Assembly: GCA_963281155.1 (NCBI GenBank)
Contig: CAUJLY010000004.1
Coordinates: forward strand, 2,728,001 to 2,792,000
Source of the DNA: Rhabditophanes sp. KR3021
Taxonomy: Eukaryota; Nematoda; Chromadorea; Rhabditida; Alloionematidae
DNA: 64,000 nucleotides
Direction: 5' to 3'
Part shown: in pieces, positions 12,004 to 51,761 of the stretch
How the letters are laid out: every line of letters starts with the position of its first letter
Numbering within the stretch: position 1 is the first letter of the stretch
Program-made: the position numbers and the translations under genes
Notes under the pieces: generated by a model
What the model was told of the DNA's origin: nothing
Database searches by the model: none
Seen by the model: only the letters and a program-made list of their open reading frames with translations

Positions 12004-15000
12004 TCAACAGTCTTTAGCAAGATGAAGAATCAAATCAGTATCAGCAAAGTTGTTAATAGTAAATGCAGCAGTGCTATTAAAGAATGGGATTGTTCGGTAT
12101 CTAGATCCTGATAAATGATATTTTATCGAGTTTCTTTGTTTTAGAGTCCCTACGGCAGAAATCATAAATCTTTGAGCGCCTGATTTGGCACCACGAGAAA
12201 TGTTTCTCAGGGAAAGGTATTTGACTCCACTTACTTTCTTCAAGGCACAAATGAGCATGTCAAGTTCTCTTTTATCAAACAACCCGCTTGTTTCAACTAC
12301 AAAAGGCTCCATGTCCGCAATAACTTCAGCCTCTTTCGCCATGTTCTTTTGACGGCATAGGAAGGGCAAAAGATGGTCGAATGTTTTAGACAAACAGATT
12401 TTGAGATAAGTCTCCATTCCATGGTTGTGTAAATGAGCCCATTCTTTATTAATCATAAGAAGATCATATCCTGTATTGGGTTCACTTAAAGACAACCATT
12501 TAAGATCCTTAAAACGTTGGAGCGAGATTACTCTTAAGAAATCTAAAAACTTTCTTCCAATACTATGTCTCATCTCCTTCATATCAACTTGAGCACTTGG
12601 CAATGCCAGATATTGGTGACGCAAATAGTTTGGAGAAACAGCTTCACAATCCATCTTGATTAAATTATTGGTCACAAATTTGAGGAAAACGATGCAAATT
12701 TGGTGGCAATCAAAGTGTCTTACCAACTCTTCATTGGTGGCAGCCCAACTACATACAAAATAAAGTAGAGCAGTAAGCCCTTTGTACATTTTGGCGTAAT
12801 CTACCAACATGCGACAAAATCCCCCAGTTTCTTCATCGAACGACAATACGAATTCATCATAAAGAGCATTGTTTTGAGTCAATTTGTAAATGTTCTCGGT
12901 CAACTCCTCAGCTAAGGGTTGTCTGGTACCGATGACTCTTTCTGGGTTAGCTCGAGCTTTGACTTTCATTGCAACTAACACATCTCTCAATGCCCAAGGG
13001 AAGGACAAGAATTGGTTTTGACGATGATCAGTATATGCGACCATGTAGTATGCACTAGCCATCTTCATCATTTCAGGACTTGGATAAGTAAAGTCACGAT
13101 CCAGAATTTGACGAATTCTGTAGACTTCGCGATTTTCGTTGCCAACTTTTTTGTCGGTTCTTTGAAGCCACATCCGGCCGTCTTCAAATGCTTGGAAGAA
13201 GTTTGTTCTGACGTCAGCAATTACATTCTTTAAACGGGATTCAATGACATGGGAAGTGTTGTATTGAGATAGATGATCATTGTCCGAGTCACTGATTCTG
13301 TTCTTCAGATTCAAGAAAGAGCTAGAGAACAACTCAAATTCGTGCTCGATATTGTAGGACTCCAGGATACTTCCACACATTGCTTTGTAGGAACGATAGT
13401 TCTTGGCAGCCGTTTCTTCATACTCCTTCCATCCTTCAATTTCAAGCTCTCCATCAACTTCGACGCTTTCTCTCTCAGAGTGGTTAATTGAAATAGTTAG
13501 GATGTCATCAACCTTCTTTAATCTCCTGTACAACTGTCCTAATAAACGCGGACTTTCATAACTTTGGAAGCGCCTTTTTTCCATGTAATCTGGGAAGCGA
13601 TCCGGCAATTCGGGTGGGCTTCTTCTGGTTCCTCTGTTGGTCAATGGAGGAGGGTAAACGCCACTCTTGGCAAAATCAACAGCAATAGAGTGCTTTTGAG
13701 CTATAGTATGACAAATCTTGCTATCGATCCCGTAAATGTCCGAATTAACTAGTAAGGCATTAGCAATCAACCCAATTGAATCTTGTCTGATATGTTCCAC
13801 TAAGAAGTTTCGCATCTCCTGGTCCAAGGTCTTGATATTAGCATTGGGTAAAGTTTTGGGGGATGGATTGGTGAAAAGAAAGGCTCTTTCACTTTTATCC
13901 AAAAACAGCCGTTCATCCCAGATAATACTATACTCATCTCCATCAAGATCACTGCCTGCCATTTCATCGGGATGTGGGCGAGGTCCAGTGCTTGGGAAGA
14001 CAACAACATCGCGGAGATGGTGCAATTGGTGGACATCAACAGCGTTGAACATACGAATATCTCCGCCAATAGTACATGGATTCTTTGAGACCATTACTTT
14101 TCCGACATGAACCTTTGCAAAAGTGCCATTGTTTTGATCCTTGTATTGGTCGATGTCGTGAGTGTATTGGAAAAAGACTTGACCTGGGTTGAGAAGGCCC
14201 GTTTCGTCAACAATCCCAAACATAGTTCTTCCTTGGGAAAAGGGAATTTTAATCTTCATTTTCTTCATAATATTTCGAATAGTAAAGACAGTTGAGGCAG
14301 TAGCAAGTTGCCTAAAGAATGGCTCTCTAGTCAGAATAAAACCATCCTCGAATCTGAGTGATTTGAAATTTAAGAACTTCGGAAACTGATTTAACTTGGA
14401 ACGTAGATGGAACTCATCAATGAGTGGCTCTGTAGCGTCAAAGATGTTTTGATCGTACAATTGGTGGATACGCTGACGGATTCTTTGATTTGTTTGGGGG
14501 TTTTGCTTAAGGGAAACTTGATCCAAGATATTAATTACGGGACGATTCAAACAAACAGGAGTAGGTGAGGAATGCTTCACGATTTCAATTTTTGACGACC
14601 AAGGAGCGTAAAACTTTTCTTGTGATGGTCTGAATAGAAAATCAAGCTCAGTCAAGTAGGCCAGTTTTTTGAAAGCAGCTTGAGTAATGACTTTTCCTCT
14701 GCAATTATCAAATGCACTATTGATAAATCCCAACTTTTCACTAACAGCAAGAACACCTAAAACGAATCAAAATCAATAAGAAGTTGCACTTTGAATATAA
14801 CATTGAAATTACGATTTGTACAAACCTTTCATTCCTTGAAATCTAAATTGAACGCACGAAGGAACAACTGGGTAGACTCCAATGTCTCTAGCAATACGCG
14901 TCATCATCCTCAAAGAAACCAGGCCACATCCATCAGAAAAAGTGTACGGCCTTCCTTTTCTGAGCAACCCACCTTCATTGTCCTCAATAAACCCAATCAT

Positions 15001-17016
15001 CGAATTGGTTATATCAATTTGATCGCAAACATGAACTTGAGTAAAGCATTGCCCGATTCTAGCCATCAATCTAGGAATGGGTTCGACTCTGAACTGTCCC
15101 ATCGTCTTTCTAACATGAGTGACTTCAAGACCACTCTGGTTTTCAATAAAGTAACATCCATTATCTCTCATTTGGGAGTTGGAGGAGCCCAAGTAACAGA
15201 ACTTGATATGGCAAATTATAAAGCCCTTGGCCAGACAATTTCCAACAGTAAGTTTGATTAAATAATCTCCAGTACTAGTAGTTCTCATCTTGAGACCGTC
15301 TTCATCTCTAAAAACAACTCTAATTGTTCTCTCTCCATTTGTGTCAAAGTGGCGCAAAACACGATTCGACATGATGTATTCGGGAGGCATCAGCATCGTT
15401 CTGGTGGGAGTAATCACAATCTTCCTGAGTCTTACAAACCCACTTCGAGTTTGATCTTCTTGGACCTGCATAATTTGCTTTCCGCTAACCTCAAATTGAT
15501 GGTAAAGATACTTTAACATTGAACTAACACAATCGGTGATCCCCTGCTTGTCTATTTGCCTGATCAGACGCTCCAAACTATCAATCGTAAGGATGCTGTC
15601 ACTTTCGTAATATCCTAAAACCATATCCATAAACTGATCTCTCTTCTCCGCATCAATCATCAAGTCGTCACGCAAAAATCCACCTCTTAAGAAAATAGCG
15701 GAGATGAGGTATTTGAAGTCAAAAGGCTTTTCAGTAATCTTGGTCCGGTACTTACCATCTTCGACAGGATCGAGTAGGTAGTCAGCTTTCGAAATGTGCC
15801 GCGTTTCCATTACACGATACTCAGCTTCACAACCAGATCTTGCCAGGAACCGATTGACAACCCAGTAAAGTTGATCAGGTTTCAAGTCCGTAAGAGTCAC
15901 ATTCACGACATAGGCCTCGCTGATGGCAATATGGTCAGAATCAGAACTATCCCAAGTAGCAAGACGTTGCATGTTAGTCCTAGTCATCCTTCCCCCACCA
16001 CTCTTGTACTTGGCGTGCTCCCAGCACCTAACTTGCATAGGATGCTTCAGAACAAAGTAAATGTCGACATCCAACAATCCACCTGGCTTGTCACTCATTG
16101 AGAAGATGAACTTTCGGAAGCTGCTGTAGTTGGCGAATAAGTTAATGACAACGTCCTTGTATTCGCCTTGATCCTTGTATGGGTCTCCCTTTAGGAATAT
16201 GCTGGTTCCAAACTTCAAACTAAATTGACCCTTGTCATGCTCCAAATCCAAGATGATGCTATTGGTCAAGTTGGTAGAACCATGAAATGAATTGAGCATG
16301 TTGCGGTACTTGTCGAATTCGGAGGCTGGATGTTTTCTGTGGCAGAGGTAGTTTTTTGGATGCAACACGTTTCCAAAGGACATTTCTTGGACAGGCAGGA
16401 GACCATCGTTTGGATTGAAGACGGTGGATGTGTACAAAGTTTGACTGACTTTGACGGTACAGTCTAATTTGGTCTTTTGAAACAAAAAAGTGGAAATGTC
16501 CCTAACCGTTCTGAATAGCAGCTCACTCGACTCGCCCATATTTACAAGAACTTTTACCTCCGTTGTTAACAGATTCAGATTTGTGAGAAGCTTTTTGATC
16601 GGCAGGACAACATTAATGATCGATTTGTGGAGGAAGTAGCCCTCCACTTCCGACTACAAAGCAATTACTTAAAAAGATGCAAGATAACAAACTTACTGCA
16701 ACATTGGCACTAATCAATTCATAATTATACTCGTCTTCGAGAGGTATAACGATCAAAAAACTACTGTCTGTATCAGGATAGTCAAATACAGAAGTGGTTC
16801 TTGGAATATGTTCCTGGGTGTTTTTCTCTTCATCACAAAACCGAGCATCAATCTCTCCGTCGAGTTGCTCCTCAATAGCCGCTGGCATCCCTTCTCCACT
16901 ATCTTCCCTTTACAAGGATAATCAAATAATAACAAATCTCTTACTTACCTTGATTCTAAAATATCTTCTAGAGTTGCCTCAATCATCTGAGGGCTTTGTT
17001 TTTGGGTGTACTCCAT
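12004..17016 (-). CDS. Cellular RNA-dependent RNA polymerase (EGO-1/RRF type)
   Basis: This enzyme makes RNA on RNA templates to amplify small-RNA silencing. Four exons (17016-16949, 16907-16697, 16653-14826, 14756-12004) encode 1619 residues, similar to EGO-1 and RRF-1 of Caenorhabditis (about 1600). The catalytic Asp triad motif is present as HPDEMAGSDLDGDEY near 13970. Upstream conserved family segments include YTFSDGCGLVSL, VQFRFQGMKGV (which spans the exon 3/4 junction), FLFRPSQEKF and the KNPCTIGGDIRMFNAVDV stretch before the active site. The N-terminal 300 residues are divergent and acidic, starting MEYTQKQSPQMIEATLED. The reading frame is intact throughout, so it is probably active. 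I cannot decide from sequence between the RRF-3 (26G) and RRF-1/EGO-1 (22G) subfamilies. Confidence 0.93.
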
Positions 17017-32762: not shown

Positions 32763-35700
32763 ATGACGTCAACAGGTCCAGTGCGCTTCAAAGCCAGATT
32801 TCATCTTAAATTGGTTCTATTGTCACTTTTTATTTCATCAATTAAATGTCAATTATATGAGTCAGAGGTAAGTTATTTATTATAAAATAACCTTTTGTAA
32901 AAATAAACTATTAACAATTTTTACAAAATGCGTTATAAAAAGTATTACAAAATCAACTATTAATATGTTTTATTGAATATTTGATTGCCTTCAATAATAT
33001 TTATTAATACTTTTTAATATGACCCCATCTGCAACTTAGAATATTTATGATAAATTAGAATAAATATATGCATTTCTTTATGACGTGCATATTATAAAAG
33101 ACAATACGATGTAACAGCTATAGAATATAGTTAATTCACGTCAAAAGTACTTGAAAAAATAGTTATGTGCCTCTTTGACATCTTCAATTGGAAACATATT
33201 TGTCGGTCAACTAAAAATATCATTGTAAGATATGTTCAAAGATGTCAAAATTTATATGAAGATGTTAAAATATGTATAAAGACGTCTAAATATGTCTTCA
33301 TTTATCAAATTTATGGGGAAGGTGTTTATGATTTGGTTAAATAATTGATTTTCAGAGTGATGATCAGAGGCACTTGAGAGGGATACAGAAGTTGCAAAGA
33401 ATTAATCAGATGCCACAACAGATATATGCAAATCAGATAATGCCGACATCAGTTAGTGCCCAAAATTATGAAGCTTCCAAATCTGTTGACCAAACTGATT
33501 CTGAATATCATTTACCAAGGCAAATGCCCGTCATCTCAGATGATACATACTTCCCTTCCAATTCCAAAAGTAATGTTATAAAGGTGAAACATCATCATAG
33601 GCCTCAGGCTCAATCAATTGTAATTGAAAGTCCCGCAATGACCTCATACGAGGAATCGGGATCATTTCCACAAAGCCGCAAAATTGTTGCTCATCCTGTT
33701 CCAGACGAAGAATTTTCAAATAGCAAGGTTAATGACAGATTTGTGAGTGACTCTCAATATAAAGTAGTCATTAATAGTCCTAAAGCCGAAGTTTATGCAC
33801 CAATCATAACTACCACTACAACGTCTGCACCATTAACGGCTGCAAAACGTGCAGATTTGATGCGTACCCATTGGAATAGGCTCGGACCAATTTTGAAAAA
33901 TCGTATTAATAGATTATACTCCAAAGCCAGATTAGCTTCATTACATGGCCCAGAAAAAAATGTTGGGAAGGAAATTAGACGGTTCAGTACAACCACCCCA
34001 AAGACATTTATGTTGGATCAAAACTCAGACACTCGTTATGTGGAAAGTGATTCATACTACCAGGAAAGTGTGAAGGAAAGACCAGTCGTTCATTCCGTAA
34101 AGACTTTGACCGACGATAAAGACTTCCACAGACCACTACTTCAAGGTAACTATAGAAGTGGAATTGAAAGTGAATCACCAAAGACCACTTTTGACAACAA
34201 GATGTCATTGTTAGGTAATTTTAGGTTGATCGTAAATGTATCTAATTAATGGTTTCTTTCCAGCACAAGCAGTAAATCTAAATAATTTTAATGGACAAGT
34301 TAACTCAGGTACTGATGATGTGTCTAAAAGTAGAATCAAGTTTGTGAGCAAGTTGGCCACTAGACCACGTTTGCACATCCGACGTCCAGGTACATGCTAT
34401 TTTATGTCGAAGCATTCTTTATCATCTTATTTCTGTATTTTCGTTCGCATCTTTTTATACTGAATTTATTTAAGAGGTTATGTTTTAGGAAGTGGACAAC
34501 CTACATTTAATGAAATGAATGTTAGGGAGCAAGCAAGATCTGCCGGGGCAAGTAATAATAAAGCCCACCCTCTTTCGTTACCTGAATTGACTCCTATTTC
34601 TGATAATGGATTTGGTAGTGGAAGTGATTCAAATTCTCCTTATCCGGAAATTCCTAAATCAGCAAGAAAAGTTGTCCCTCAACAAAATATAGCACCACCA
34701 AGTCGATTTTCACCACCAGCTGAATTTGCGCCTATTGAAAGAAAGAAAAGCAGGGAAGAACCGAGTGGATTAGATGTTGCACCACCCGCTCCTGCTTTAG
34801 GTTCATTCCCACCTGGCTTTGGAAAAGGATTTGGGGTAGAAAATGGGCCTAATAAGTTGGAATTCGACAGTGAAGAAATGGATAAAGATGTTCAAGTTGA
34901 ACCTCCACCTCAACCTACCAAATCAAACAAAAGGTACGTTGAAAAATGAATATTTAAAAATATTATTAAAATTAGATGGCAAAAGATATAAAGTATACAG
35001 CAATATTAAAATTTAGTAGTAACAACATTTTTGAGTTCAAACATCTTCTCTACCAAAGTTGACCAATCAATTTGGCATTTTTAGGAGAGGTCATGTAAAC
35101 ATCCTCAATGGTGCATTTACCATAAACCACGTTCCTATCTTGACTGCTAAGTATACTGTTAATATGTATTCTAACTTTTCTTTTAATTATCTTGTAGGCA
35201 CCTTTATCTTGACGACAATGGTTTGAACCATTGAATCATGTGACTTCTTGGTGTTGTTTGTTTCGTTCAATCTTTCTTTTTTTGGAAAGAACGCGATTTT
35301 TATTAACGTGAAGTTTGTATTGCTTGTGGTGTACATTTATTCCACTGTGAAAATGTGGAGTTTTTGGATCTGACTCAGATTCTCCTACGTAATAGGTAAC
35401 TTTAATGAACTCATTCTGCTCAGTAATTCATAAAAGTCCCCTAAGAGGAACTGCAACGAAAGGTTGAATAAGACATAAAATAACATGATAGATAGCATCC
35501 AATGTTGACTGTCGGAGTTAAGGATTGACTAAAACGAATTACATTATAAATTCCAGCATTACTTAACATTTTCCCTTTCTCCAAAAGTAATGGCTTTCCT
35601 AATCACCACTGGTTCAACTCCTGTGGCTTCATAAGACGATTCCTCAGTATTTCCGCATTTATGGGCTCCTTTTATCGTCATTATTTTAGAAATAAACCCA

Positions 35701-38430
35701 GTAGGTTAGACCTTACGCAACTAAAATAGTACCATTAAAATAGATGAACAATATAAATAATAAGGAAATATACAAATAGTAGCCTCGATAAAATAAAAAT
35801 GAGATGATAAAACATGTTATACATGAATTTGAAGTAGCATTATCTTGACCAACGTAATTGCTGCAAACCATCTTTTATGGCTTTGATTTTAAAGCACTAC
35901 AGAATACACACAACAAAATTGATAATAGACATAATTTAAACTCACAAAACAATTACTAGTATTCTATTTAATTCCAAGTAGTCGGTATATAATTAAAATC
36001 ATTTATAACTTTAGGAAACAACCACCACCTGAGGAAACACCTTTTATTTCGGAAAATTCTGGATTAAGAAATGTTGCCCCACCAACTGATTTTGCTGGTA
36101 CTGGTGGATTTGGATCGGCAATCGGAGGCGGTAGTGGTAGTGGTTCACCATTTGGAGGTGGTTCAGGATTCGGAGGTGGTGGAGGTGGATTTGGAGGAGG
36201 TGCCGGTGGATCTTCTGGGGGAGGAGGTGGATCAGGGTTCGGAGGTGGCGCTGGTGCCGCTTTTGGAAATAGTGGAAGTAGCGAAAAATCACCTCCTCCA
36301 ATGCCAGAATCATTTGGCGCAGGAGACTCAAGTGACAGTGCTTTCGGAACAGGAACTAAACCATCAAGCGACTTTGACAAACCATCTAAATCAACTGGTC
36401 CAGAAGAAGAGGCTAAATTTGATCAAGAGACTATGTTCACCGGTGAGCTCATTTAAAATATTAAAAATAGATCGACAAACATTTTTATAAGAAGTAACAA
36501 TTAAAAAGTAGATGAAAAAATATTTTAAAAGCTCAGATAATAAGCTTGAGTTCAAATAGAATTGTAGTCGAGATCTCGACTAATTTGCAGGCATTGACAG
36601 AGTTGAGTGTGTAGATTGCCGGAATAGTGTACTTTCCATGATCACAGTTTGTACTTGCCACTCAAATTTGTGAGAAAAAATAGATCCAAGATTCACAGCA
36701 ACTACACACGATGGCACTGGGAGTTTGCACATAACAATTATATCGACGCCTGCTTTGTTCATTATTAGTTCATTGCGATCAAAAAGACGTTGTTGGAGCA
36801 TCTTTTTTTGGAACTTTTTGACATGAATGTTTTTTCTATTATCGTTCTCTAACTCGCCAAATAGAATATGGCTTTCTAAATTACCCGAAACATTATTTTT
36901 ACTACTTGAGCCGATCATGAAGAATAAGATTTCTCCATCCAGGCCAAATGGAAGATAGGACAAGTCCGACATCAAAGTCGGCGCTGAAATTCTTTTCAGC
37001 ATTGCGTAGCCTTTCGCGTGATCGGATTTCAATGTGGGATGACAAACTACGTTCACTTAATTTTTTGCAGTAGGAACATTTTCCTCATCTTCACCATCCG
37101 ATTGATTATTTTTATTATCTCCACCATAAGTGCACTCATCATTACGTGTAGGTCTAGTTGTAACTTATCCAACTTAATTTGCTTTATAATTGGCATCAAA
37201 TAAGTGTTTAACTTGACATGGATGCAAGCCATCTGGAACTTCTAATGAAACACTATTCATTGATAAATTCATCAAACTTGGACAAGTAGCAATAATGATC
37301 CTCCGAGGCTTAGAGCGGTTTCAGCACAATAATATAGCTTTTTGCCAATTTTCAAAAATCTTGCATCCGCGGTCTTTCTGTCTTAACAAGTTTTTAATTG
37401 TATTTCTTGTTTAATTGACAAGAGTCCGTTTTCTAGTTTTTTTCAAACCTGATAATTGCGTACATCGAGTCTACCATGCAAATGTTTTGGATTGTAACAA
37501 CAACCGACCTATAATGACTCATCTTTAAATGTCAAAATATAGAGTCTACTTATTACAAATTTTGGTATTGATTGTCCTCTCAACCACTATGCAGATTCTT
37601 TTTTCATTAAATTTTAGTTTTAACCAACGTGCATAATCTAAATAAAAAGATAATTAGTAAAAAACTAAACTAAGATATGTGAGATTAATTAGGGACTCAT
37701 TTGCGTGTGACACCGAAAGGATGGTGATAACAAGTGACCAACAAAAGTATAATTTTAAATATTATACTTTCGAAAAGATATAACTGATATACCGTTTATT
37801 CCAAAATATACTGAATTATTATTTAACTAATATTTCTCCATTCTGAAGGTGATTCAGCTTTAAATACTAATTCAAAAGGCCCAACTGGGGACGGTAAGTT
37901 AAATAAATATTTGACATTATAAATAATATTTTGTAGGTTATGGTCCCGCAATCTCACAAGGAGCAGCAGTGCCACCACCAGTAAATGGTTTTGGATATGG
38001 TGGCGGAGCTTCAGGAGCATCGCCTTATGGAAATCTTCTTGAGCAGGGACCCAGAAATGTTCCGACTACAGTTAAACCATCTGCTTTGCTAAATATCTTA
38101 AGTAAAGCTGACGAAGGATTGAATCAAGCTATTACACATTTTGAAAGAGGAACTCCAGTTGAAACCGCAGCCATTGATATACTTGAAGTAGCTTTGGGAA
38201 GCCAACGTCTTGACAGTCAGGCAAAATTGTTAGGGCACGTAGATAGAACGATCGGTTTAGAAAATTTGCAACGAATCCAAAGGCTAGCGAATACAGGAAA
38301 TTTAATGGATATCTTTAAAGAACAATTTGTGAAGCTTGCTAAGAACTATAACCCACCTGAGAATCTACAACTTCCTACATTGCCACCTCAATTAGAATAT
38401 TTATTTTCACCAAATAATAAAAATAAATAG
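32763..38430 (+). CDS. Secreted Gly/Pro-rich protein with conserved helical C-terminal domain
   Basis: Seven exons (32763-32867, 33356-34214, 34264-34389, 34489-34933, 36015-36442, 37849-37893, 37937-38430) give 833 residues. The N-terminus has a signal peptide (LKLVLLSLFISSIKCQ). A polar region follows, with a Thr-rich segment, RAD-like helix and basic RIKF/RPRLHIRRP sites that could be furin-type cleavage sites. The middle is low complexity, with Pro-rich then GGGSGFGGG-type repeats in exon 5. The last about 125 residues form a compact, non-repetitive, probably helical domain (ADEGLNQAITHF, AAIDILEVALGSQRLDSQAK, NLQRIQRLANTG). This domain seems familiar from uncharacterised nematode secreted proteins, but I cannot name it. 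Cuticle or extracellular-matrix localisation is inference. The two long introns (1081 and 1406 nt) each hold an antisense gene fragment. Confidence 0.75.
33231..33290 (+). repeat. Three 20-bp imperfect tandem repeats
   Basis: Units at 33231, 33251 and 33271 share the pattern TATGTNNAAAGATGTNAAAA. They lie in intron 1 of the Gly-rich gene. Confidence 0.5.
35050..35699 (-). pseudogene. Antisense intronic gene fragment A
   Basis: Lies in the 1.08-kb intron of the Gly-rich gene. Minus-strand translation gives protein-like stretches interrupted by stops and a frame change: NTEESSYEATGVEPVVIRKA near 35600, then FIKVTYYVGESESDPKTPHF near 35390, and a terminal VYGKCTIEDVYM near 35120. The last motif matches the ends of fragments B and C, and the first matches fragment D. 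The parent family is unknown. The stops make it non-functional as a protein. Confidence 0.55.
36555..37645 (-). pseudogene. Antisense intronic gene fragment B (largest copy)
   Basis: Lies in the 1.41-kb intron of the Gly-rich gene. A largely consistent minus-strand frame runs over about 1 kb with at least five in-frame stops and two frame changes. It includes YARWLKLKFNEKR, CCYNPKHLHGRLDV, KTADARFLKIGKKLYYC, SLEVPDGLHPCQVKHL, the longest open piece 37056-36580 (YLPFGLDGEILFFMIGSS, MCKLPVPSCVVAVNLGS) and, after a frame shift, [20 protein letters not shown]. An acceptor-like TTTTTATTTAG precedes the first piece, so the copy may derive from an intron-containing gene. The family is unknown. Confidence 0.6.
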
Positions 38431-38532
38431 AAATATTTCCTAAATTTGCCGAAAAAGATTTCTACGGCTGTTGTGCCATTAAAAATATAATAATAATAGA
38501 TTCATACTCCGTTTCGAGGATGTTTGACCCAA

Positions 38533-39430
38533 TTAATGTATAAATTTTAATTGTTTTAAATTATTTAACTTATTTTCAACAAATAAACTTTTTATTATAA
38601 TATCCTTTAAGAGTTGTTCATTTATCAGATACATAATTTGATAACCTCTATTCATCATACCAAATCTGCGTTCTTGTAATCTTGGCCAGGCAGCAGTTGA
38701 AACTTGTGTTTGATATACATCAAACCATAATCTTTCTGCTACTGCAGTTGCTTTTGGGAGAAGTCTTGGTATTGTATTTGTTCCATCAACAAATTCCCCT
38801 AAGTATAAGCATTAACAATTTTACTAAATATAATCAAAATTAAAGTGAATTAGGAGATATGTATTACCCCAAATATTAGCCTGCCCACCAATTACGAGAT
38901 TTTTTGCGCTCGTGTCTCATTAAATCCTTGTGGATCCCACTGTAAATTGAAATATTATTATGATAAATGAGATATTTAGCTGATAATATGTTCCCGTCGT
39001 TTCAATGCTATCACAATCAGCCCCATATTTAATAAATAAAATGAGGTTGATTCGTAGGGGAAAGATTCAGAATCTACTAAATGCGCCATGGAATACATTA
39101 AACTTATTTTGAGCCATTAGACCAATTACGTGCTTATAATAGAATGAGAAATAAAATGACGAGAACTGTCAATCATGACTCTTCTGTGGCTGAATCGAGG
39201 CTTGTATAGGATAAAAACAGATTTGACTAAGCAAACTACTACTATCAGTTCAATATATACCAATTGTGAGAATGATTCTGGATCTATTAAAGCACCCCAA
39301 ATTGTATTACTAACAATGAAGCCAGTGTGTTCAGTTATCGGGTTAGAAATTTCGTAGGATTCGTCCATGTCCAGTTGAGGGTAAACTGAATCACCACATC
39401 CTCGAATAACTTGAATATTTATTACGTTAA
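38533..39430 (-). pseudogene. Broken GH20 beta-hexosaminidase
   Basis: Beta-N-acetylhexosaminidases remove terminal GlcNAc/GalNAc from glycans. Minus-strand pieces match the family in order: GCGDSVYPQLDMDESYEI, TIWGALIDPESFSQLVYI, RFSHRRVMIDSSRHF, MAQNKFNVFH, LVDSESFPYES, then near the end KYGADC, WDPQGFNETRAQK, ANIWG and EFVDGTNTIPRLLPKA followed by AERLW. The catalytic centre is missing: sequence jumps from the SFPYES block to the KYGAD block, losing roughly 200 residues including the conserved DE pair. There are also frame changes after VFH and in the A-run of QKxL, and the donor after TYYQ reads CT instead of GT. One intron near the 3' end (GTAATA...ACTTAG, about 38868-38800) is still intact. 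Confidence 0.85.
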
Positions 39431-39721
39431 TTTATTTACAGAAGCATCCATTTTTTATGAATTAGAATTGCCTATATAAATTATGATGACCTATTACTGG
39501 ATTTATAGTAGGGAATGAGGCAATTTGACATCTTTTTAGAAGTGTCTTTATTTTAAATAACTTATTTGTTTGTTGTATGGCTTGGTTTAGTCTTATTAGA
39601 TTTATTGACCAGTAGCGTCATCTCTTTTTCCTAAGAGATGTATTTAGTATGGTTTTAAAAGAAAAAGTTTTATTAGAAGAAATGGTGAATTAAACAAAAA
39701 TGTATTTTTACAATAAAGTAT

Positions 39722-41293
39722 TTAAGCAGCAATTTTTACCTCTTCGGTAATTTCGATGTGGTCAATGTGACTGATAGTTTTTGTTGTGAAATCGTAGTCA
39801 TTTGGACAATGGAAATAAGCACCATCGGCAAAAAGCTCTTCATCCGCAACTTGATTCCAAATTTTGAGCTTTAGAATTACGCCAGTGACTAAGCCGGCAA
39901 CACTTGGAACTACAATAGCGATTAAAATTGCCAAAGCTTGGTAGAGGGCTTGGTCGGTATTACTGCGTGGATGATCTCCAACTGATGCAGGATATATGTA
40001 AGCATATTCAGCTCCAAATTGTTCTTTTGTATAAACTAAGGCTAAGATAACACTGCAAATTCCGGAAATAAAAGCAGGGACGCCATGCAAACTATTGATA
40101 GAGCAAGTATCGTGAATTCCAAGTTTGTTCTTCATGAAAGGAGTAAGCCAATTAATACACATGACAGATATAATTCCACTGAATGTTCCAATGATTAAAG
40201 CCAAAACAGGGTGTAAGGAGATATTAGCAACACTTCCAATAGCTACCCCACCAGCTAGAATCGCATTGGCCATGTGTACCATATCAAAATGTCTCTTATG
40301 ATTGACTAGTTGAGAAGTGATAAATGTACCTAATACGGCACCTGACAACGATAGATAAGTGTTGAGGATACAACGTTGCTTGGCGTTATCCCCGACAGCA
40401 ACTGCCGCGTTAAACGATGGCCAGTAGATAAATAAGATTAAGGATCCAACCATTGCGAAAAGATCGGAATGAACGATCGAGCCTTCGTGATCTGAACGGG
40501 CAATGCCGCTTCTGTTTAACACTTTGGCAACTGAAAATATTATTGTTTATGTTAATTTTGAGTCTGTCCTACCTCCGAAAGCGAAAACTGCTCCAAACAA
40601 ATGAACGACTAATGATCCTCCTACATCACTTACGTGGAGAACCTTAAACATTTTATTATTATTTTCTCATCGCAGTATTACCTCTACGATTATATGTTCG
40701 GTTACGAGAGCCACCGGTGTTTCTAAGAAAGCCATAATCAAATATTGTGATGGACTAAATGTATAATTGCGATGAAAACTTGGAGTCGAACTTACGAGAG
40801 TTTGCCTAGCAATCCACCCATGGTGATTAAAATGACGGCAGCTGCAAAGTCAGCAGTAATCATGTTTTTAATTCCAATACTAAAGATCCCATGCTCGTGA
40901 AATTCTTCACTAAGGAATCCTCGGATGATAATCGCCCATTCAATCACAAATGTGGCCAAGAACAAGTTTATTGAGATAGCTGAGAATCCATATCTTCGCA
41001 AAAAGGTCATCAAGAAGCCAAAGCCTACAAGGATCGATGATGTGTTAACGTTACGAGTTAAAATTAATAAACGTGGTCCCTTAAGGAATCTTCTTCTTAC
41101 CTATGAAAATCATTCCATGGATATCTTCAAAAAGCGGAAAATCCGACATCTCTTGATTTGCAACTCCTGATGGCTGTGCGCTTTCAGAATATCTGGCAAA
41201 GAGTCCAAAAATAACAATGAAGATGACATGGAGGACTCCAAGTAAAATCACAAATTGGTTGTGCTGAAAAGCAGAAGGTTTTGTGTACGCCAT
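39722..41293 (-). CDS. Rh-type (Rhesus) ammonium/ammonia channel
   Basis: Rh proteins form trimeric membrane channels for ammonia, and possibly CO2, in epithelia. Five exons (41293-41101, 41024-40797, 40755-40682, 40642-40573, 40530-39722) encode 457 residues, matching animal Rh glycoproteins. About 11-12 membrane segments are visible, starting FVILLGVLHVIFIVIFGLF. Family signatures are NMITADFAAAVILITMGGLLGK, HVSDVGGSLVVHLFGAVFAF, YWPSFNAA, CSINSLHGVPAFISGI (the H of HG lines the pore) and HMANAILAGGVAIG (another pore histidine). The acidic cytosolic tail ends EITEEVKIAA. All introns are 37-76 nt. The hexosaminidase remnant lies just downstream. Confidence 0.95.
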
Positions 41294-42147
41294 GTTCTAT
41301 CTTAAAAAAATGAATGAAAATGTATTAGTAAAAGTTTTTTAACAATCCTTATAAAGTCTAGTGAACGACCTTAACAAAAGTAATATAACCATCATAACAA
41401 TGTAACCACTTTAGTACTCGTTGCCCTGAGATAAATGAATTAACAATAAAGTAGACACAAACAAACTAATCAAAAATAAAGTATTTTTAAGTATGGAAAA
41501 CAAATTATTCGCATTGCTACATAATTCCAGCTACCAAATTTGTCAAAAGTACTTATGATAGGAGACTTTTGATACAAGTTGATGAAACTTTAATAACGTG
41601 ATCGAAGGCGTCAACATTTTTATGTCCTTGCATCATCAACTATAAATCATTTTAAACAATTTACAACATATGTGTATATTTCATATTTTATGCATTTTTT
41701 GTATAATATCAATGTGATCAAAAAAATAATCAAATTCTTCGTAACTATGGCAAAATCAAAAGATCAAAGGTAATTTATGATGAGCGCCTTTTGAAAAATA
41801 ATTTAAGACAACTTTGCGCTCCTATTAAACGGGGTGCACACGACTTTGCACGTTTAAAGGTATTTGGTACTTTTTAAGCCGATGGCATTGAAAATTTGAT
41901 ATTTGAACTCTTGATGTTTCTAATTTGTAACCAATGCTTGATATATTGCTATATTATTTACAGTAAATTGCCTAATTGATGTCTGCTTTCGAATAAATTG
42001 CTAGATTCTTCAAAAATTATACCGATCTAAAATAAATTGTAACAATTAAGCATCACAAAATTGGCTATAATTCTGCATTCTTGTGATAAATGGTTAAAAT
42101 TATACATTTGACAATATATTACTATACCAAGTTCTTCACATTAATGG

Positions 42148-42266
42148 CAACTTAATTTTTAATTCAATACTCAACTTAATTTATAATTCAATGTTCAACT
42201 TACTTTTTATTCAATTTTCAACTTAATTTATTATTCAATTTCCAACTTACTTTTTTATTCAAATTA
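42148..42266 (+). repeat. Five 23-24-bp tandem repeats
   Basis: Units start at 42148, 42172, 42196, 42219 and 42243. Each begins CAACTTA(A/C)TTT and contains ATTCAA. The regular spacing is clear by eye. Confidence 0.75.
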
Positions 42267-42740
42267 AGTTTCAATGTCCCCTTTTATGTTTAATTTATTG
42301 TTCAACCTAGTTGTTAGATCCAAAGTAATATATTGTATGATATGTTCTTCAAACCTAAATATAATGCTGTATATATAACTTTGTGTTAATTAATTAAAAG
42401 TTTAGTATTATAAGACGTCAAATAAAAGTCTTAATAATACTTTACATATAAATTATTATTTTATTATAATCGTAACAGAACACATTTAGTCGTCGAATCT
42501 TGCAATAAAGATGAGTAACATCCCTAAAAGATATTGTTTTTTGTTGACTATCATCCATACTTATCACTTAATTACTTTAATTAGTATGCACAAACATATA
42601 CTTATCCATACTAAGATGAAATAACGTGCTAGATTATTAGGTGTAAGAAAGTATTAGGTTGTAAATGAATAGAGATTAATAATATGTTTGTAGGGAATGC
42701 AAATATTTGTGATGTGTTTGTTTAGGGAAACAAAATACAA

Positions 42741-42747
42741 TATAAAA
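42741..42747 (+). promoter_or_regulatory. TATA box of M1-like gene
   Basis: TATAAAA lies 36-42 bases upstream of the ATG at 42783. Confidence 0.5.
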
Positions 42748-42782
42748 TGAATGATGGTGATGAAGTTAATTACTAATTAGCG

Positions 42783-45553
42783 ATGAAAATCAAAACATTC
42801 TTATCCATTGTATCCGTTCTTTTTCTATTACTTGGAGTGACGAATTGCACCCATAAGACGTGGTATCAGGAACTGTTCCCAACCAATTCCTTTCAAATAC
42901 AAAGCCACAATATCAAGCTTTCATTTGACTTTATGGCACACCATCAGACTGACAAAAATCTCAAAATTAACATGGAGGGAACTGACGAAGTCATATTTAC
43001 CATACTTGATGATTGTAGAAATTTAACCTTTGATGCTGCTAAAAATTTTACTTTTAGAAATGTTAAATTATATGACATCACAGATGATATTAAAACACAA
43101 GATTGTGACGTTTATATGGATGAAGATAAACTTCTGTTTACGGTTAAACCTTTCGAAGTTGTTCGTCCAGGGAGAATAATGAAGTTATACCTGTCATTCG
43201 CCTATGTGGTTATGCCCTTTGATAGTCGAAGTGGAGGAATTGTGTACAATTACTACTCAATTGCAAACAAAAATAAAGTATATATTTATAGCAAGCCGAA
43301 TCTACGACAAAAACAACGCATACTACCGCCTATTGGGATAAGGAATGAAAAGAGTACTCTGAATATTACAATTAATCATGGCGGTCATAGTTCAGGATTT
43401 TCAAATGGCTTCGGAGTTGTTGAGCATGATGAATCGAAACTATCTGCGACAAAAATAAATATCAAGCAACATTTACATCCGGATCAGTTGGTTTTGGCTG
43501 TTGGACCATATGATATTGAAGAAGCCAGAACATCAAATGGAATTACTGTGAGATTAATTACTTATCCAGCATTAAAGTTATTCGCAAGTAAAACAGAGTT
43601 GTTAAATGTTGCTATAAAGGCATTCAACTACATGGATGATTATACTAAAACACGTTTGATAGTTGAAAATGTTGATTTTATTTCCGTATTTGACCTTACT
43701 GATAATGCAGCTACGTACATGACTCCCGGAGCAATTTTAATTGACTATACATTGTTGACAACAAAATCAAATCAACCAAAAGGAACATTTGACAAAATCG
43801 GTCTGTACAAACACATTATTAAAGGTGTTGTTCGACAATATTTCAATTATAGTGTATCAAAACAGAAATTGAGTCACCGTTTTTTGACTGAAGGTAACTT
43901 ATTATTAAAAATTAAAATATGTGAAAAACAAAAATAGATATTAAGACTTTATAAGGTGCTTCTCATATCCACATTCTGAGAAGTATAAACACAGCATGAT
44001 TTGTCTCCCTCTTTGACTTTATCCAGTTGTTTGTTGATTTGTACAGCTTTAGCCACGTTTCATTTGGAGTATCCGTGACTTGCACCAACTTTTTGGCACG
44101 TCAATTCGATCGTCTGTACCGGTTTCATAAGGTACATGGGTTAGATGTTCTCCGCAGTCTCTTAAATTTGATTTTAAATAAAACGATATATAAAGAAGTA
44201 ACGTTCAGCTAAACACAAAATTAATAAAGTAATAATGTGTTGATCTAATATCTTATTCTGATTCAAGGATTACCTGAATACTTTGTTAGGAACATCTTAA
44301 ATATCGTTAAGCCGGAATGGAAGGAAATTACCAATTGTTTGGTAAATATTGTGAAGCCATTTGAAAGTGTAAGAGACAATCGTACAAATCAGTACGATGG
44401 AGAGTACACAATTTCCACATTGAATGCAAAGGAGTACCATGTTATGAAGATGGTGGAAAATATTATTGGTGACTCACAATTGACGGAAAATATTCACAAA
44501 TTTTTGATAAATACAGACAGGCAGTTGGATCTGGATAACTTCGAAATTTTCATAACAAGAGACACTGTTTTAGAGAACAAAAAATTCTTTTTGAATTGGT
44601 TAGAGCATGAAGGTTATCCTATCATTGAAGTTGCTTATCATACAAATGAACTTAATATTAGACAAGAAAGACATACCAATTTTTTGATTCCAATTATTAG
44701 CCATAGTTCAAAATTGTTGTGGTTGACCAATGAAACAATTGTCACCTCGGACATGTCTTATTTACCTGTCAGGGAAAATGGAGAAATTTATGGAAGGGTT
44801 CAATATAGCAATAGAACTATCTTTAAAATATTAAACGAAAGAAGATACCATACTTCAACTACTTTGAAAACTTTACTAGCAGATGAATGGGATTGCTTCA
44901 TACAGCCTGGAGCTAAGTCCGACCATATGTTGTTTTCGCTAAAAAATATCGTTGACAAAACATTGGAATTGGGGTTTGTAGGACGAAGTAATACCAATAT
45001 CATTTTAAGCTTCTTTTTGACGCTCAAAGAAATTTTCAAAAGTTTTTCCACTCAAAAAAACCACTTTAAATATAACAAGCAATTTGACAAATATTTTGAG
45101 CATTTCGTTGCTAATCAAGTAGATTCATTGACAATTCATTTTGATGAAAAGAATCCTGATAAGAACTATTTTAGGGCTGCAATGATAACATCCAAAATTG
45201 GGCTAGGTGATAGGAAGCTTCATACTTCATTTAACATTTACGCGAAAGAAATGGCAGAACGATGTCCTACACATGAAGAATGTGAAGATTACGTAAATGA
45301 CGTGTTGCGATTATACTGGGATTTAAATAAAAATCCGTCTGCTGAAACAACGGGTTTAATAGGAGAAGGAGATCATGTACTTGACATGCTATTAAAAGCA
45401 GTTGACTCAATGGGGGAAAATTTGGCTGATGACGTTTTGAGTGGTATTGTTCAATATTCAAGATCTGTATGTAATTTGTACTGGCAAAAACCTGGAAATG
45501 AGAATAATATTGACATTTGTGCCAGAATGTTTGTTGATACTTTGCTTGTTTAA
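42783..45553 (+). CDS. Secreted M1 aminopeptidase-like pseudoenzyme
   Basis: Two exons (42783-43893, 44268-45553) give 798 residues with signal peptide IKTFLSIVSVLFLLLGVTNC. The fold follows the M1 family: an N-terminal beta-domain (WYQELFPTNSFQIQ start), a degenerate thermolysin-like domain and a C-terminal helical ERAP1-like domain with WLTNETIV-type strands. The catalytic motifs are lost. The GAMEN exopeptidase loop is replaced by NAATYMTPGAI, and where HExxHxxxH should stand the sequence reads IIKGVVRQYF. The downstream LTEGLPEYF segment (third zinc ligand Glu region in active enzymes) is still present across the exon junction. The frame is intact over 2.4 kb, so the protein is probably made but not peptidolytic, perhaps binding peptides. 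The 374-nt intron is long for this window. Confidence 0.85.
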
Positions 45554-46517
45554 TTACTAATAATTGTATAATAATAACATATTTTGTTTCACAAGACACA
45601 TAAATAACATCCAACATGATCAAAACAAAAACGCCAAAATAAATATTTATACTGTCATAAATCAAATTGAAAAATTGTTTCACCCTTTCAGTATAAACAA
45701 TCTTATTTCTCTGGTACTATCTGTCTTTATCATTCTCAACCATAACTCAAGCTATCAGAGATTAAAACAATGCGAGTGTCGTTTTTCCATTGCTTTTCTA
45801 CTTAACGTTTTTGTTATGATAAAATTTGGTAATTAAAGTAGGCACTAATGATATTAAAGACAGCTATATTTGCTTGATGACCAATCTTGATAATTAACCG
45901 TTGATTCTTGCACTAGGCAATCAATCTTACTTATATTGTATCTCAATTCTTATACATACAATACATCTTTAAATTGATAAAAAAAACACTGATTAAACCA
46001 AGTCTATTATGCAATATTCGTTGTAACTAGCTTTTATCTAATATTAGCAAATATCATCTGCAATATTTATAAATGTTTAGCTTATACTTGCCAACTTTTT
46101 TAAATTAATCAGCTTTGAGATGCTTGTCTAGTTATATCAATATGAAATAAAATTTAGTCATTAGTAAACTAAAGTCATATTCTAGGTATACAAATATTTT
46201 ATTGAAAGAGATATTTTTCCAAACTCGTTTTGAAAGTCCACTTTGACAATTGAAAACATAAACGTTTGAATGTTCAGCCATTACTTTATTTCGTTTATCA
46301 CAAAGCTAATTAATGGCTTTCAATATTATAACAATCTCATTAATACTTTTACATATTCTCCGTCTTACATGCATTTCAAATATTGGTTATAATTTTAAAC
46401 GGTGAAAGTCGAAATGTAAACACGGAAAAATTTAATTTGACCTCTTGTTTTGGAAAGCTTATCTTCTTATACAAAATTACATCTTTTAGGTGGATATATA
46501 TTTAAGCAGTCCTACAA
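45554..46517. other. Intergenic region
   Basis: No supported gene; open frames at 45564-45836 (plus) and 45267-45683 (minus) show no family features or splice context. Confidence 0.5.
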
Positions 46518-49153
46518 ATGACGAACTTCAAGAATAAAGTTCTACTAATGGGTAGAAGTTGCTCCGGCAAGACTTCAATGCGTAGTGTAATTTTTGCTAA
46601 CTATATAGCTCGAGATACCAGTAGATTAGGAGCAACTATCGATGTCGAACATGCACATGTCAAGTGAGTAACGCTTTACGGTGTCCTTATAATAATATTT
46701 TAATTTTAGGTAAGCAAAAATTTATTAAAACTACATAGTTAACATGCGTCCAAATATTATTAAATTATTCATCAGCCATAATTTTACAATCAAACATCTG
46801 TTTGGTCAAGAGATCAGCGACAGCGCATGCATTAACACTATCAAGCAAGTAGACATCCGGCATAGAGCATTTGCCATGATCACAGTTGGTGCTTGGATCT
46901 TTCAATTAATATAATAAATGCCTTTCTTGAATCTTGGATAGTTGGAGAGAATATAGTTCAACCATTCATAGGCAGTTTTGAACTTGGCGTTGTATTCAGC
47001 AATACACAGTTCTTCACATTGACGAGTGATGATGTGTTCAGCTAATTTACCATAACCGTTCATAACCAACTTGCAGTATGTGCAATGTACTTCTTTTTCA
47101 CATTCCTTTGCTTCAGTCACTGATTCGTTTGTGTTGTTAAGGACTCGCTTTACTTAATACCCAATTTTCGCCTGTTTACACCTTTCCTCAAACGCAGACT
47201 TCATTCTTGCAAGATCAGTACTATTTGGTAACACCAGTATTTTGTTAAGCTCAAGTCGAATTTCCCACTTAGTCAATTCATAATCATCATTTTTGATCTC
47301 TTTGGGCATTGTGTAGTAGTCGACGGCATTCCTAATCAGCATGACAATTTGTAGTATCCCCGTCTTGAAATCAGCGACCTTGGCTAATGTGTATGATAAA
47401 TGATAAAATAACTTTTAGTAAGTTACAGTAAATGATATGGTACCTCGAATTCTGTAGGTTGAAGCAATGCTTTTCGACAAAATGCATAAAATAAAGTCGA
47501 AGCTTGATGTGCAGCAAAACCAGCATCCTTGAACATCGTTGGCATACCTTTAAAGTACTATCAGAGTCCTCTAGGCTAACAATGGCATATTTGAGCTCCT
47601 ACATGTTCTCGGCAGCATCCTTTCAGCTTCATAACTTCCTTGAGGGCTTCTGTTCTCTATAAACATCTTTGAGCTCTTAACTTGTCGCTTCTGTACTTGA
47701 CATATAAATACATAAATAACAACAACAAAATTGAAAGTAATTAATTTAAAAAATATTCTTTTAAACCATACCTCTTGGTGTATATTTACTTAAAACTTAT
47801 CTTACCTTTAATACAAATTTGTTTAAAAATGTTAGGTAAATAACTGCCTTTATTCTAATAATGATTGTTTTAGGTTTCTAGGTAATTTAGTGTTGCATTT
47901 ATGGGATTGTGGTGGTAAGTCTTAAGGGCAAACGAAAAATACAAAATATAACAAACATTTTTAAACAAGAATTGAGTTTGATGATCTATTTGATGCAATT
48001 TTCTTGAAGCATAGTGACCGATTCTCTTAATAACACCAGGATGTTTTAAATACATTATTTTACTTGTTGTTGATGCACGGTTCATTAATTTAACACAACG
48101 GCACAATCAATACCAGCTAAGTTGATTATCTTTATTGTATCTACACAGTAGATTGACATTGCACATAATTAGTTATAATAATTACATCATTTAACTGTAG
48201 TGGCTTTGAATCAAATGTATGCAATATGACTTAAATTGATTTAATTCTATAATTTTCTCATTTTGAATGATTGTAGGTCAGGAAGTTTTCATGGAGAACT
48301 TTTTAAATGCTCAAAAGGATCAAATTTTCAAGGGAGTACAAGTTTTAATTTATGTCTTCGATATTGACTCAAAGGATGAAAAGGACTTTGAATATTATTC
48401 AAAATGTGTAGCTTCCTTAATGAGAAACTCCCCAACCGCGAAGGTTTTTGTTCTACTGCACAAAATTGATCTTATTCCACCTGAAATTAAAGACCAGGTT
48501 TATCGTGAAAAGGTCAACAAGGTCATTGCTTCTACAAAAGGAATGCCGGATGAGCGTTTAGAGTTGCTAAGACAATGTTGCTTCATGTCATCAATTTGGG
48601 ACGAAACTCTGTACAAGGCCTGGTCCGCCATTGTTCATCTTTTGATTCCATCTATTGATATAATCGAAAAGCATTTGATGGAATTTGCCAAAATTATGGA
48701 AGCAAGGTTCGTTATATTTATTAATTTAAATACACAAAAATATAGGCAAAACATAAGGCACGTATGTGTTTATTTATAGAAGTCAAAAATGAGCATATTC
48801 GAATATAAAATTAATTACAATAATATATCTGTTTCAGTGAAGTGCTCCTCTTTGAAAAAGCCACTTTTTTGTCAATTGCTAAAGCAGAGGTGGAACACCA
48901 CGATGATTTACAGAGATTTGAGAAACTGTCAAATATTATAAAACAATTCAAATTATCAGTTTCAAGAATCGGTTCTCACTTCGAATGCTTAGAGATTCGC
49001 AATAGGGATTTTGCGTGCTTTATTGACAGTTTTACTGAAAATACCTTTATCATGGTTGTTGTTCCAGATGGAAATGTATCCTCAGCTACTATTCTCATGA
49101 ACATTAAAAGTGTTAAAAGGAATTTTGAAAGCTTAACTACCGCAGCCGAGTAA
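46518..49153 (+). CDS. raga-1: RagA/B small GTPase
   Basis: RagA, paired with RagC, tells TORC1 at the lysosome that amino acids are present. Four exons (46518-46663, 47874-47914, 48277-48706, 48838-49153) give 310 residues, near the 313 of human RagA. G-domain motifs are the P-loop [15 protein letters not shown], switch [18 protein letters not shown] (spanning exons 1-2), switch [12 protein letters not shown] (spanning exons 2-3) and the guanine-specific HKID. The roadblock-like C-terminal part reads [15 protein letters not shown], then [14 protein letters not shown] and [15 protein letters not shown]. Exon 2 is only 41 nt. Intron 1 is 1210 nt and contains antisense fragment C. Confidence 0.96.
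46765..47560 (-). pseudogene. Antisense intronic gene fragment C (in RagA intron 1)
   Basis: Minus-strand coding-like pieces are [20 protein letters not shown] near 47545, a possible intron (GTACCA...CATTAG, 47442-47384), [20 protein letters not shown] to [10 protein letters not shown] with a stop, then [20 protein letters not shown] to [16 protein letters not shown] with a stop. After a frame change comes [20 protein letters not shown]. The last motif equals that of fragment B almost exactly, also at DNA level. The whole piece cannot encode one protein as it stands. The family is unknown. Confidence 0.55.
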
Positions 49154-49367
49154 AAATGATATAAGTGTTTGTAATCTTGCCTTGAATAAATGTTAATATC
49201 AAATGGGTTAAATATTTATTTCAATAAATACGCCATAAACATACAAGTCTATAATATATACACTTCAATATATTAATAATGGATACAAATGAATAATATG
49301 ACAAAAAATCATTTGCAGTGGACGATAAAAAATCATATGATAAAGAAATTTTACAAGTATTAATATA

Positions 49368-51761
49368 TTAACAAGGAATACTAAAAAACTCGTTCTTTGC
49401 TCGAGGTGATGATGTCGCACTTCCAAAGGGTGAACTATGTACAAACACATCCTTTAGACCAAGTCTGCGCATTTCTGATTGCAAGATTAGTTCCATCTCA
49501 TAACCAAATTTAATTTGCTCAGCTATAAACATCGAAAAACATGACCAAGCTTGCGCTTTAACTGGACACACACTTTTATTTGATAAGGGTGAATTTTTAC
49601 TTCTTCTTCTGACCGAGGCTCCATCGAATGTTGACAAGAAATCTGATGTCAGCAATTTGCTTGATTTGCTATGAGTAAGTTGGTTTGGGCTGTTTTTGAA
49701 AGAACTAATTAAATAGTTTATTGCTTTTTTGTCCCTTTCATTTGTTTGCGTTAATATACTACTACTTTTTGAAATTGTTATTAAAGGATGAACTTTGCCA
49801 GGTGACGAATAGTTCGTTTCATTTGAGGAATTAGTGGAAGAAAAGTCTGTTTCTTGACAATCTTCTCTTTCCTCAACTGATACGATGCCTTGAGTGCTAT
49901 TGGTTTCACTTGACATTAGATCCTAAAAATAAGCAAACATATTATTTTCATATAATCTATTGAAATAAGATATGTGATTTTTGATGCAATGCTTACCTTA
50001 TTTCCGAGTAAAAATACACTGTTTTTTGTAATATCTAATTGTTTCAATTCTTTGGCTTTACTCGTGATTGCTGCTTCGAGTCGATCCCAGTAATTTGTGG
50101 GTACTTTCACGGTTCCATTGAAGTCGACCGCGTAGGTTGCTCCGAATTCTCGTAAGCAATCAAGAACTAACGTCGTATCAAAAATATTTTCGATGCAATC
50201 TATCAGTGTGTTGCAAAATTTCTTTAAAAAAATCAAGATATTATTATAAAGTATTGGTCGTACCTGGTTATGCATCTTAAAATTTATATGCTGTTCCCAA
50301 ACATCGTCTTGATATCTTTCACAAACTTCTAAACCAATTACTTTTAATAGTCTTTTGTCTCGTGAAAATATAGTTTGAAAAACATTATGAACGAAGTCAT
50401 AGAATGTCAACTTGTCAGTTTCTTCAAAAATCAGTTGAATTAACCTTTTTTGAGTATTGCTTAGCTCAGCAGCACTGCCAAGACCATTTCGGTGTCTAAA
50501 GGAACCTGTAATACGTACAATATTAGTAATTCTTTTCTGACTTTGAAATATGTTTCCTATTAATTTTATTATGTATATTTTGTAGTGCTTTAAAATGTAA
50601 GTCAACACCCTTCCCAAGCTTCTGGTTAAGTTTACATTGCTTCAAAATTTGCGTATACATGTCTTAAGACGTTTTGTCATCTCGTTCTTATTTTAATAAG
50701 ATTAATACGTCTTTATCTCCTTATTATTTATATTGTTAATCTATACTAATCATACTATTTTAGCTACACAAGATCTAACCTACTGGGTTTTATTTCATAA
50801 AAACTGATAATAAAATGAACACTGTTGGGCTGAAACGCCGAGGAAGCATCTTGTGAAGCTACAGGAGTTGAACCAGTGATGAGTATAAAAGCTATTACGT
50901 TTGGGAAAATGGAATCATTTTGATCTGTAATCAAATGGAGGAAAATAGTTTGGTTGTTCGAAGAAAGCTGGAAAAAGAAGTTGCTAAATTTAAGGAGTGT
51001 TTGAGAGGAAAGGCCAAATAATTGTTCAAATAAATTCAATGATGAAATGGTTAGATGAAAACATGCTGAAGAAAAGTGCATCGACTCAATATGATCAGCT
51101 GAAAGTCGTTTTTGGGAACATGGAATTACCCCTTCAATATTTGCATTGCTGTTCTTGGCATAGACGATGGAAGGCTTCTAATCCATTATAAAGAAAATGC
51201 TTCCGTTAAAAAAGAAAATTATGCTTCTTTATGACATATGTCCTACTCTCTAGCTACTTGTGATTCTATTAAAGGAACATCGAGGACTCATTTAAAGAAA
51301 ATTATACGTGCACATGGCGTTTTTTGCCTTTTTTGTATTTAATAAATATTCTTATTCGATCGTGCCTAGCATCTTGTGTTGATCAATTATTCCGAATACG
51401 GAACATACCATTATATTTTCTATCCCCCCACTAACCAGTATTTCCTATTCCTGCTCTAAAGGATTTAGTCCTCCTATTTGACCTATCAGTTGAATGTTTT
51501 TGTTGATGGTAGTTTAATGACGTAGAGTTTCTGCTTAAATGACTGTAAGTAATTATGACTTGTTTTTGAAATGTTTTTAACTTACGATACTTCATTAGCT
51601 GAATCACTTCTTTTTCTTCCGGTCTCGGGGTTGGGTGAGCTAGAATTGGAATGGGTGGTAAATATCTTTACTTGTTTTTTGGCTGGTCTACGACTGCTTT
51701 CCGCTACAGAAGATTTGGTAGAAGGAAAGGAATTTCTTAGAGAAGATTCAGAGTTACCCAT
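49368..51761 (-). CDS. Nematode-type globin with N- and C-terminal extensions
   Basis: Preferred model: five exons (51761-51586, 51542-51436, 50505-50264, 50221-49997, 49922-49368), 434 residues. It begins MGNSESSLR, an N-myristoylation-type start known from nematode globins, then a basic Ser-rich leader ending KSFRAGIGNTGSFRHRNG. The globin fold runs from about TQKRLIQLIFEETDKL to NYWDRLEAAITSKAKEL. The helix-F stretch reads LREFGATYAVDF, so the position expected for the proximal histidine is Tyr. The C-terminal extension of about 185 residues is Ser-rich and disordered. An alternative first exon (50660-50609, MYTQILKQCKL) also splices in frame through a weak GTGTTG donor. The globin call rests on helix pattern and the H-helix YWD motif. 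Confidence 0.72.
50837..51190 (+). pseudogene. Antisense intronic gene fragment D (in globin intron)
   Basis: Plus-strand translation starts AEEASCEATGVEPVMSIKAI, nearly the same as fragment A (YEATGVEPVVIRKAI). After frame changes come ENSLVVRRKLEKEVAKFKE and SMMKWLDENM. The latter loosely recalls the C-terminal helices of HSP70-like proteins, though this is weak. Stops in every frame show it is decayed. Host gene and fragment are on opposite strands. Confidence 0.45.

Follow-up and report, generated by a model that had tools for sequence, protein, structure and literature searches.

The window analysed here is a stretch of 64,000 nucleotides from Rhabditophanes sp. KR3021 (C4:2728001-2792000), whose genome assembly spans 44.85 Mb over six contigs. 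Judged from the translations, the genes in the window resemble those of nematodes. A preliminary description of this DNA had reported four stop-ridden, protein-like fragments lying in introns of three host genes, each on the strand opposite to its host. When 64 copies located elsewhere in the genome were compared with the whole window, exactly four matching stretches were obtained; the four fragments are therefore real, although their spans are somewhat longer than first given. The first two (copies A and B) occupy two introns of one gene on the forward strand, whose region, as outlined by its open reading frames, extends from 33341 to 38430 and for which a Pfam search with two exons gave no match. 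Copy A (34952-35980, reverse strand, decayed) carries a C-terminal coding block at about 35056-35216, as located by tblastn, and is enclosed in a host intron at 34934-36014 (5′ splice site after 34933 and 3′ splice site after 36014), whose removal rejoins the host frame as KSNKR/KQPPPEE with more than 40 open codons on each side. Copy B (36485-37849, reverse strand, decayed), whose coding block at about 36536-36726 was identified by comparing the window with the 64 copies, lies in the intron 36443-37848; the join leaves 60 open codons on the left and 23 on the right, and the intron is followed by a short exon and then by an ordinary intron.

The second host, also on the forward strand, is a RagA-type GTPase gene, the exon following the intron at 46664-47873 matching Pfam Gtr1_RagA with an E value of 1.3e-43. 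This intron holds copy C (46716-47847, reverse strand, decayed), with its coding block at about 46768-46905, again from the comparison of the window with the 64 copies; the rejoined protein was in this case read by eye and not by script. Finally, copy D (50497-51305, decayed) lies on the forward strand within a 930-nt intron of a reverse-strand gene (50506-51435), whose rejoined frame reads ...GIGNTG/SFRHRNG.... All four copies are thus antisense to their hosts, as first described, with A, B and C on the reverse strand of forward-strand genes and D in the opposite arrangement.

The motifs shared by the four fragments go beyond chance, since each fragment is a genomic repeat with further matches at the DNA level (counting the query, at least 23 for B, 58 for C, 51 for A and 38 for D). 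Copies A, B and C have in common a 3′ coding block, a stop codon and an AATAAA-like signal, while A and D share their 5′ part (76% identity over about 260 bases). It had been left open whether one or more gene families were present: a single family is what we find, in which A/D, B and C are subfamilies. A split into two distinct families, B/C and A/D, was considered and discarded because of the one common 3′ coding block.

Genome-wide, the family comprises at least 241 distinct copies, 119 on the forward and 122 on the reverse strand, a figure obtained by merging two protein searches in which 150 of 375 and 150 of 489 candidates were scored and listed. For the analysis of the elements, 68 loci were cut out as 51 segments, to which 22 loci were added (20 selected manually from the match lists, 2 because their open frames are long), giving 73 segments with 79 copies; the 12 copies whose 5′ end could not be located were omitted from the strand, flank-repeat and automatic-junction tests, which therefore cover 67. 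The common 3′ coding block is about 70 residues long (...DHGKC..PDVY.LNSVNA...) and is followed by the stop codon and the AATAAA-like signal, beyond which the aligned copies have little sequence in common. Upstream of the block lie C2H2-like pieces; in a Pfam scan of eight decayed pieces, zf-met in one piece was the sole match above its cut-off, and no known transposase domain appeared. Stop codons are frequent: in three sets of ungapped blocks, which overlap one another, they occurred in 15 of 46, 12 of 44 and 11 of 39. Since half of the differences between copies fall at third codon positions (27%, 22% and 51% at positions 1, 2 and 3, in 453 pairs chosen by DNA similarity), the protein was formerly under selection and, judging from these alignments, is that of a once working gene in the source lineage. 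Searches with two copies found no relatives in a database of 5.8 billion proteins, and none were found among solved structures. As a control, the host RagA exon retrieved 322 proteins, the best 52% identical, with nematodes among the matches listed; the database thus contains nematodes, although close kin of Rhabditophanes sp. KR3021 may be absent from it.

Two copies about 100 kb apart, L004 (C3:4209923-4213551) and L007 (C3:4111677-4115316), are 96.9% identical over 1,670 columns and are embedded in different host sequence with differing flanks, the next closest pair being about 83% identical. The near-identity of these two copies points to recent movement, or to conversion.

The antisense position recurs across the genome. 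When introns were modelled with held-out coding models, the antisense model scored higher than the sense model for 61 of the 67 copies, the sense model scored higher for four, and two gave no model. Two of those four, window copy A and L070, rejoin in antisense on hand reading. Likewise, in 49 segments scored with a held-out coding model, the two window segments being omitted, the nearest exons on both sides were antisense to the element in 27 and sense in two, the other 20 being mixed, one-sided or without exons. As for the two "sense" segments, C5_601329 rejoins in antisense, and C4_4534218 is antisense by eye only. Held-out models were preferred to a self-trained model, which had learned copy B itself, and to another that was too weak.

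We then consider what happens at the element ends. Removal of the element rejoins an open host frame at 46 of 47 junction pairs read by hand (44 segments outside the window plus window copies A and B), the sole failure being C2_4523781; copy D rejoins as well. At least 40 codons are open on both sides in 34 of the 46 open joins. Because these junctions were sought by eye and solely in antisense, their uniform direction (46 of 46) should not be taken as a measure of orientation; for a few weak joins the script settled on a frame other than the hand-read one, and about 22 of the 67 located copies, having no readable junction pair, do not enter the junction count. The joins are further supported by the hosts, which from their translations we take to include collagen repeats, a protein with a furin-like motif, a peroxidase and a DGAT-like protein, among others. 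Within each subfamily, the 3′ splice sites selected by the intron models cluster at constant distances from the 5′ end of the element. Element-bearing introns have a median length of 1,085 nt (n = 46), compared with 47 nt for ordinary introns (n = 27), the latter being what was left, after a first set of six and a contaminated set of 280, once a filter on intron bases had been applied. A loosely defined branch-like motif occurs in 37 of the 46 element-intron tails and in 13 of the 27 ordinary ones, and ACTAAT in 9 of 46 and 1 of 27, while CTAAT/CTAAC is not enriched (10 of 46 versus 8 of 27).

The exon bases at the junctions are distinctive. The upstream exon ends with AG in 35 of 46 element introns, as compared with 5 of 27 ordinary introns (p = 2e-6), whereas GT at the start of the downstream exon is not clearly enriched (16 of 46 versus 4 of 27, p = 0.10). 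Moreover, bases -10 to -3 of the exon end resemble the corresponding bases of the intron end at the hand-read junctions, with 176 matches versus 126.0 ± 8.3 for shuffled partners (p = 1e-4). The excess persists when five junctions chosen with the help of similarity are removed (154 versus 113.3), and it is also present when loci L069-L090 are taken alone (65 versus 42.1 for 16 junctions, three of them among the five just mentioned). The 27 ordinary introns, on the other hand, show no such excess (64 versus 61.0, p = 0.32). Runs of at least eight bases common to exon end and intron end number 6 versus 0.17 expected. The longest duplications measure 12 bases (L036), 11 (L015), 10 (L073), 9 (L026) and 8 (L037); L059 also has an 8-base match, but its tail, TCGTTACAG, recurs in several copies, and this match may therefore belong to the element itself and not be a target duplication. 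In a comparison of one flank with the other, the longest repeat reached at least eight bases in 27 of 67 copies versus 16.4, a modest excess. Most junctions have no long duplication (runs shorter than 7 bases in 39 of 46), and in old copies the trace may have been lost. The duplication has no fixed length and is significant at hand-read junctions but absent when junctions are chosen automatically (209 versus 213.2, p = 0.69). Terminal inverted repeats were not found, the two ends of the same copy scoring 17.28 against 17.36 for shuffled partners, and an element bounded by such repeats was rejected on these scores.

The suggestion that the fragments might be a mobile family not recognised at first proves correct. 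We consider it quite likely, from the sequence of the copies and their junctions, that this is a family of introners, that is, of mobile elements that make a spliceosomal intron where they insert. An element with splice sites on its antisense strand explains together the antisense copies, the introns as long as the element and the repeated exon-end bases. Given that exon-end bases are repeated at the intron 3′ end and are not so repeated in ordinary introns, most copies probably created their introns instead of entering old ones. The element, presumably moving as DNA, would insert mainly into exons, just 3′ of an AG. Read in the direction of the host, the new intron would start at the element's 3′ end with a GTAAG- or GTATG-like 5′ splice site and finish at its 5′ end in a branch-like region; the closing AG would come from the copy of the exon end that results from target-site duplication or, in some subfamilies, seemingly from the element. 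The sense strand of the element carries the gene for the zinc-finger-like protein, with its stop codon and AATAAA-like signal near the element end. Because the predicted splice sites lie at the element ends and on the antisense strand, an insertion into an exon could be removed by splicing only when antisense; such insertions would restore the frame and remain, and selection would remove the others. For this reason purifying selection against the sense direction, proposed initially, is probably not the main cause of the bias, since the introner reading would explain the antisense rule by splicing and not by special selection.

The principal alternative is that an ordinary gene-bearing transposon entered short, old introns, and that selection removed the sense copies with their polyadenylation signal while antisense copies stayed. 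Transposons in introns are well known to show an antisense bias, and the automatic junction test, with no exon-end duplication, agrees with such an origin, as do two copies that break the pattern. In the RagA-type gene, positions 46664-46709 have the appearance of an entire intron of the ordinary kind, 46 nt long (GTGAGT...TTTTAG), and copy C lies directly behind it, the element starting at 46710 with GTAAGC and closing with a second TTTTAG/GT; it is as if an AG-preferring element had taken an existing 3′ splice site. In the second case, L007, the element is flanked within its intron, to the left and to the right, by about 30 nt that do not belong to it. Some copies, such as these two, may indeed have entered or joined old introns. 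As an account of the family, however, entry into old introns would predict neither the exon-end duplication at the hand-read junctions, nor AG at 35 of 46 exon ends, nor splice sites at the element edges, and we regard it as unlikely. The RagA-type locus thus presents two TTTTAG/GT 3′ splice sites, 1,164 bases apart.

Genes nested antisense in introns are known in animals, and the copies do contain a real coding block with past constraint, as would be expected of ordinary nested host genes that were dispersed by duplication, decayed in place and were never mobile. Yet the hosts of the copies are unrelated genes, the similarity stops at the element ends and does not run into the hosts in the copies aligned, and the exon-end duplication indicates insertion; an origin of this kind is very improbable. 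Even less credible is the idea that the fragments persist because they would supply the host with antisense or small RNA. In its favour, the window contains a long gene at approximately 12004-16653 (reverse strand) for what we presume, from its translation, to be an RdRP-like protein, but the antisense position is explained without any RNA role.

Introners have been surveyed by Gozashti et al. (2022; PMC9860276), in whose account family medians range from 30 to 654 nt, the elements are derived from nonautonomous elements and only two animal groups have them; the string "nematod" is absent from the main text of that article. As with the introners described there, introns in many unrelated worm genes are made up of members of a single repeat family, the similarity extends to the intron ends (the extra 46 nt of copy C and the flanks of L007 being exceptions), the splice sites lie at the ends of the element or derive from the target duplication, and the mRNA is predicted from the sequence to be restored, with its frame intact across the joins. 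The lack of terminal inverted repeats is also found in some introner families. Introners are usually short and without a protein gene, which is not strictly a defining trait; the worm elements differ in their median of 1,085 nt (n = 46) and in their antisense protein gene. Like antisense nested genes of animals, they place a protein gene in an intron on the opposite strand, but here a single mobile unit seems to bring both intron and nested gene to hundreds of sites. As in DNA transposons with target-site duplications, the copies are dispersed, and some hand-read junctions have short repeats that may be duplicated target bases; they differ in having no terminal inverted repeats, no known transposase domain in the eight pieces scanned, and insertion sites that become introns. 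In the papers found on introners, intron gain and nested genes, titles and opening lines of abstracts mention neither a protein-coding antisense introner nor a nematode one. A later introner survey from the group of Gozashti may include related cases. Intron gain in animals is an old open question, and a nematode with hundreds of long, protein-gene-bearing introners would offer an animal system for testing the birth of introns.

The copies are unevenly distributed among the contigs. The largest contig (C6, 11.2 Mb), which is of chromosome size, holds only 9 of the 241 copies listed, versus 60.2 expected from its length, while its share of the protein kinase matches is 38 of 126 (copies versus kinases, Fisher p = 2.8e-12, after setting aside four matches to second pieces of a kinase gene already counted). 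The other five contigs have 5.4 to 7.7 of the copies listed per Mb, and the small contig C5 has 15 of them and one kinase. The depleted contig may correspond to the X chromosome, and the X of C. elegans has few germline-active genes. The element protein is a candidate for the mobilisation of the family. A more speculative version of the introner reading, possible but on balance doubtful, is that of an autonomous introner, whose zinc-finger-like protein would itself be a new type of factor for mobilisation or targeting, aiming at AG in germline-active genes and sparing a germline-silent chromosome. If so, every jump would at once create an intron and a gene nested in it.

Two further features of the copies were observed. 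The 5′ ends of the A/D subfamily (for instance at window positions 35860-35980, reverse strand) contain TTTTGTAG-like sites on the sense strand, which might serve as acceptor sites if transcripts of the gene carried by the element are spliced or trans-spliced. Finally, locus L085 (C1:5088380-5091180) carries two neighbouring copies, at about 26-700 and about 818-2107 of the element strand, as do A and B in the window, and both copies apparently lie in one host, which we take to be a peroxidase-like gene.
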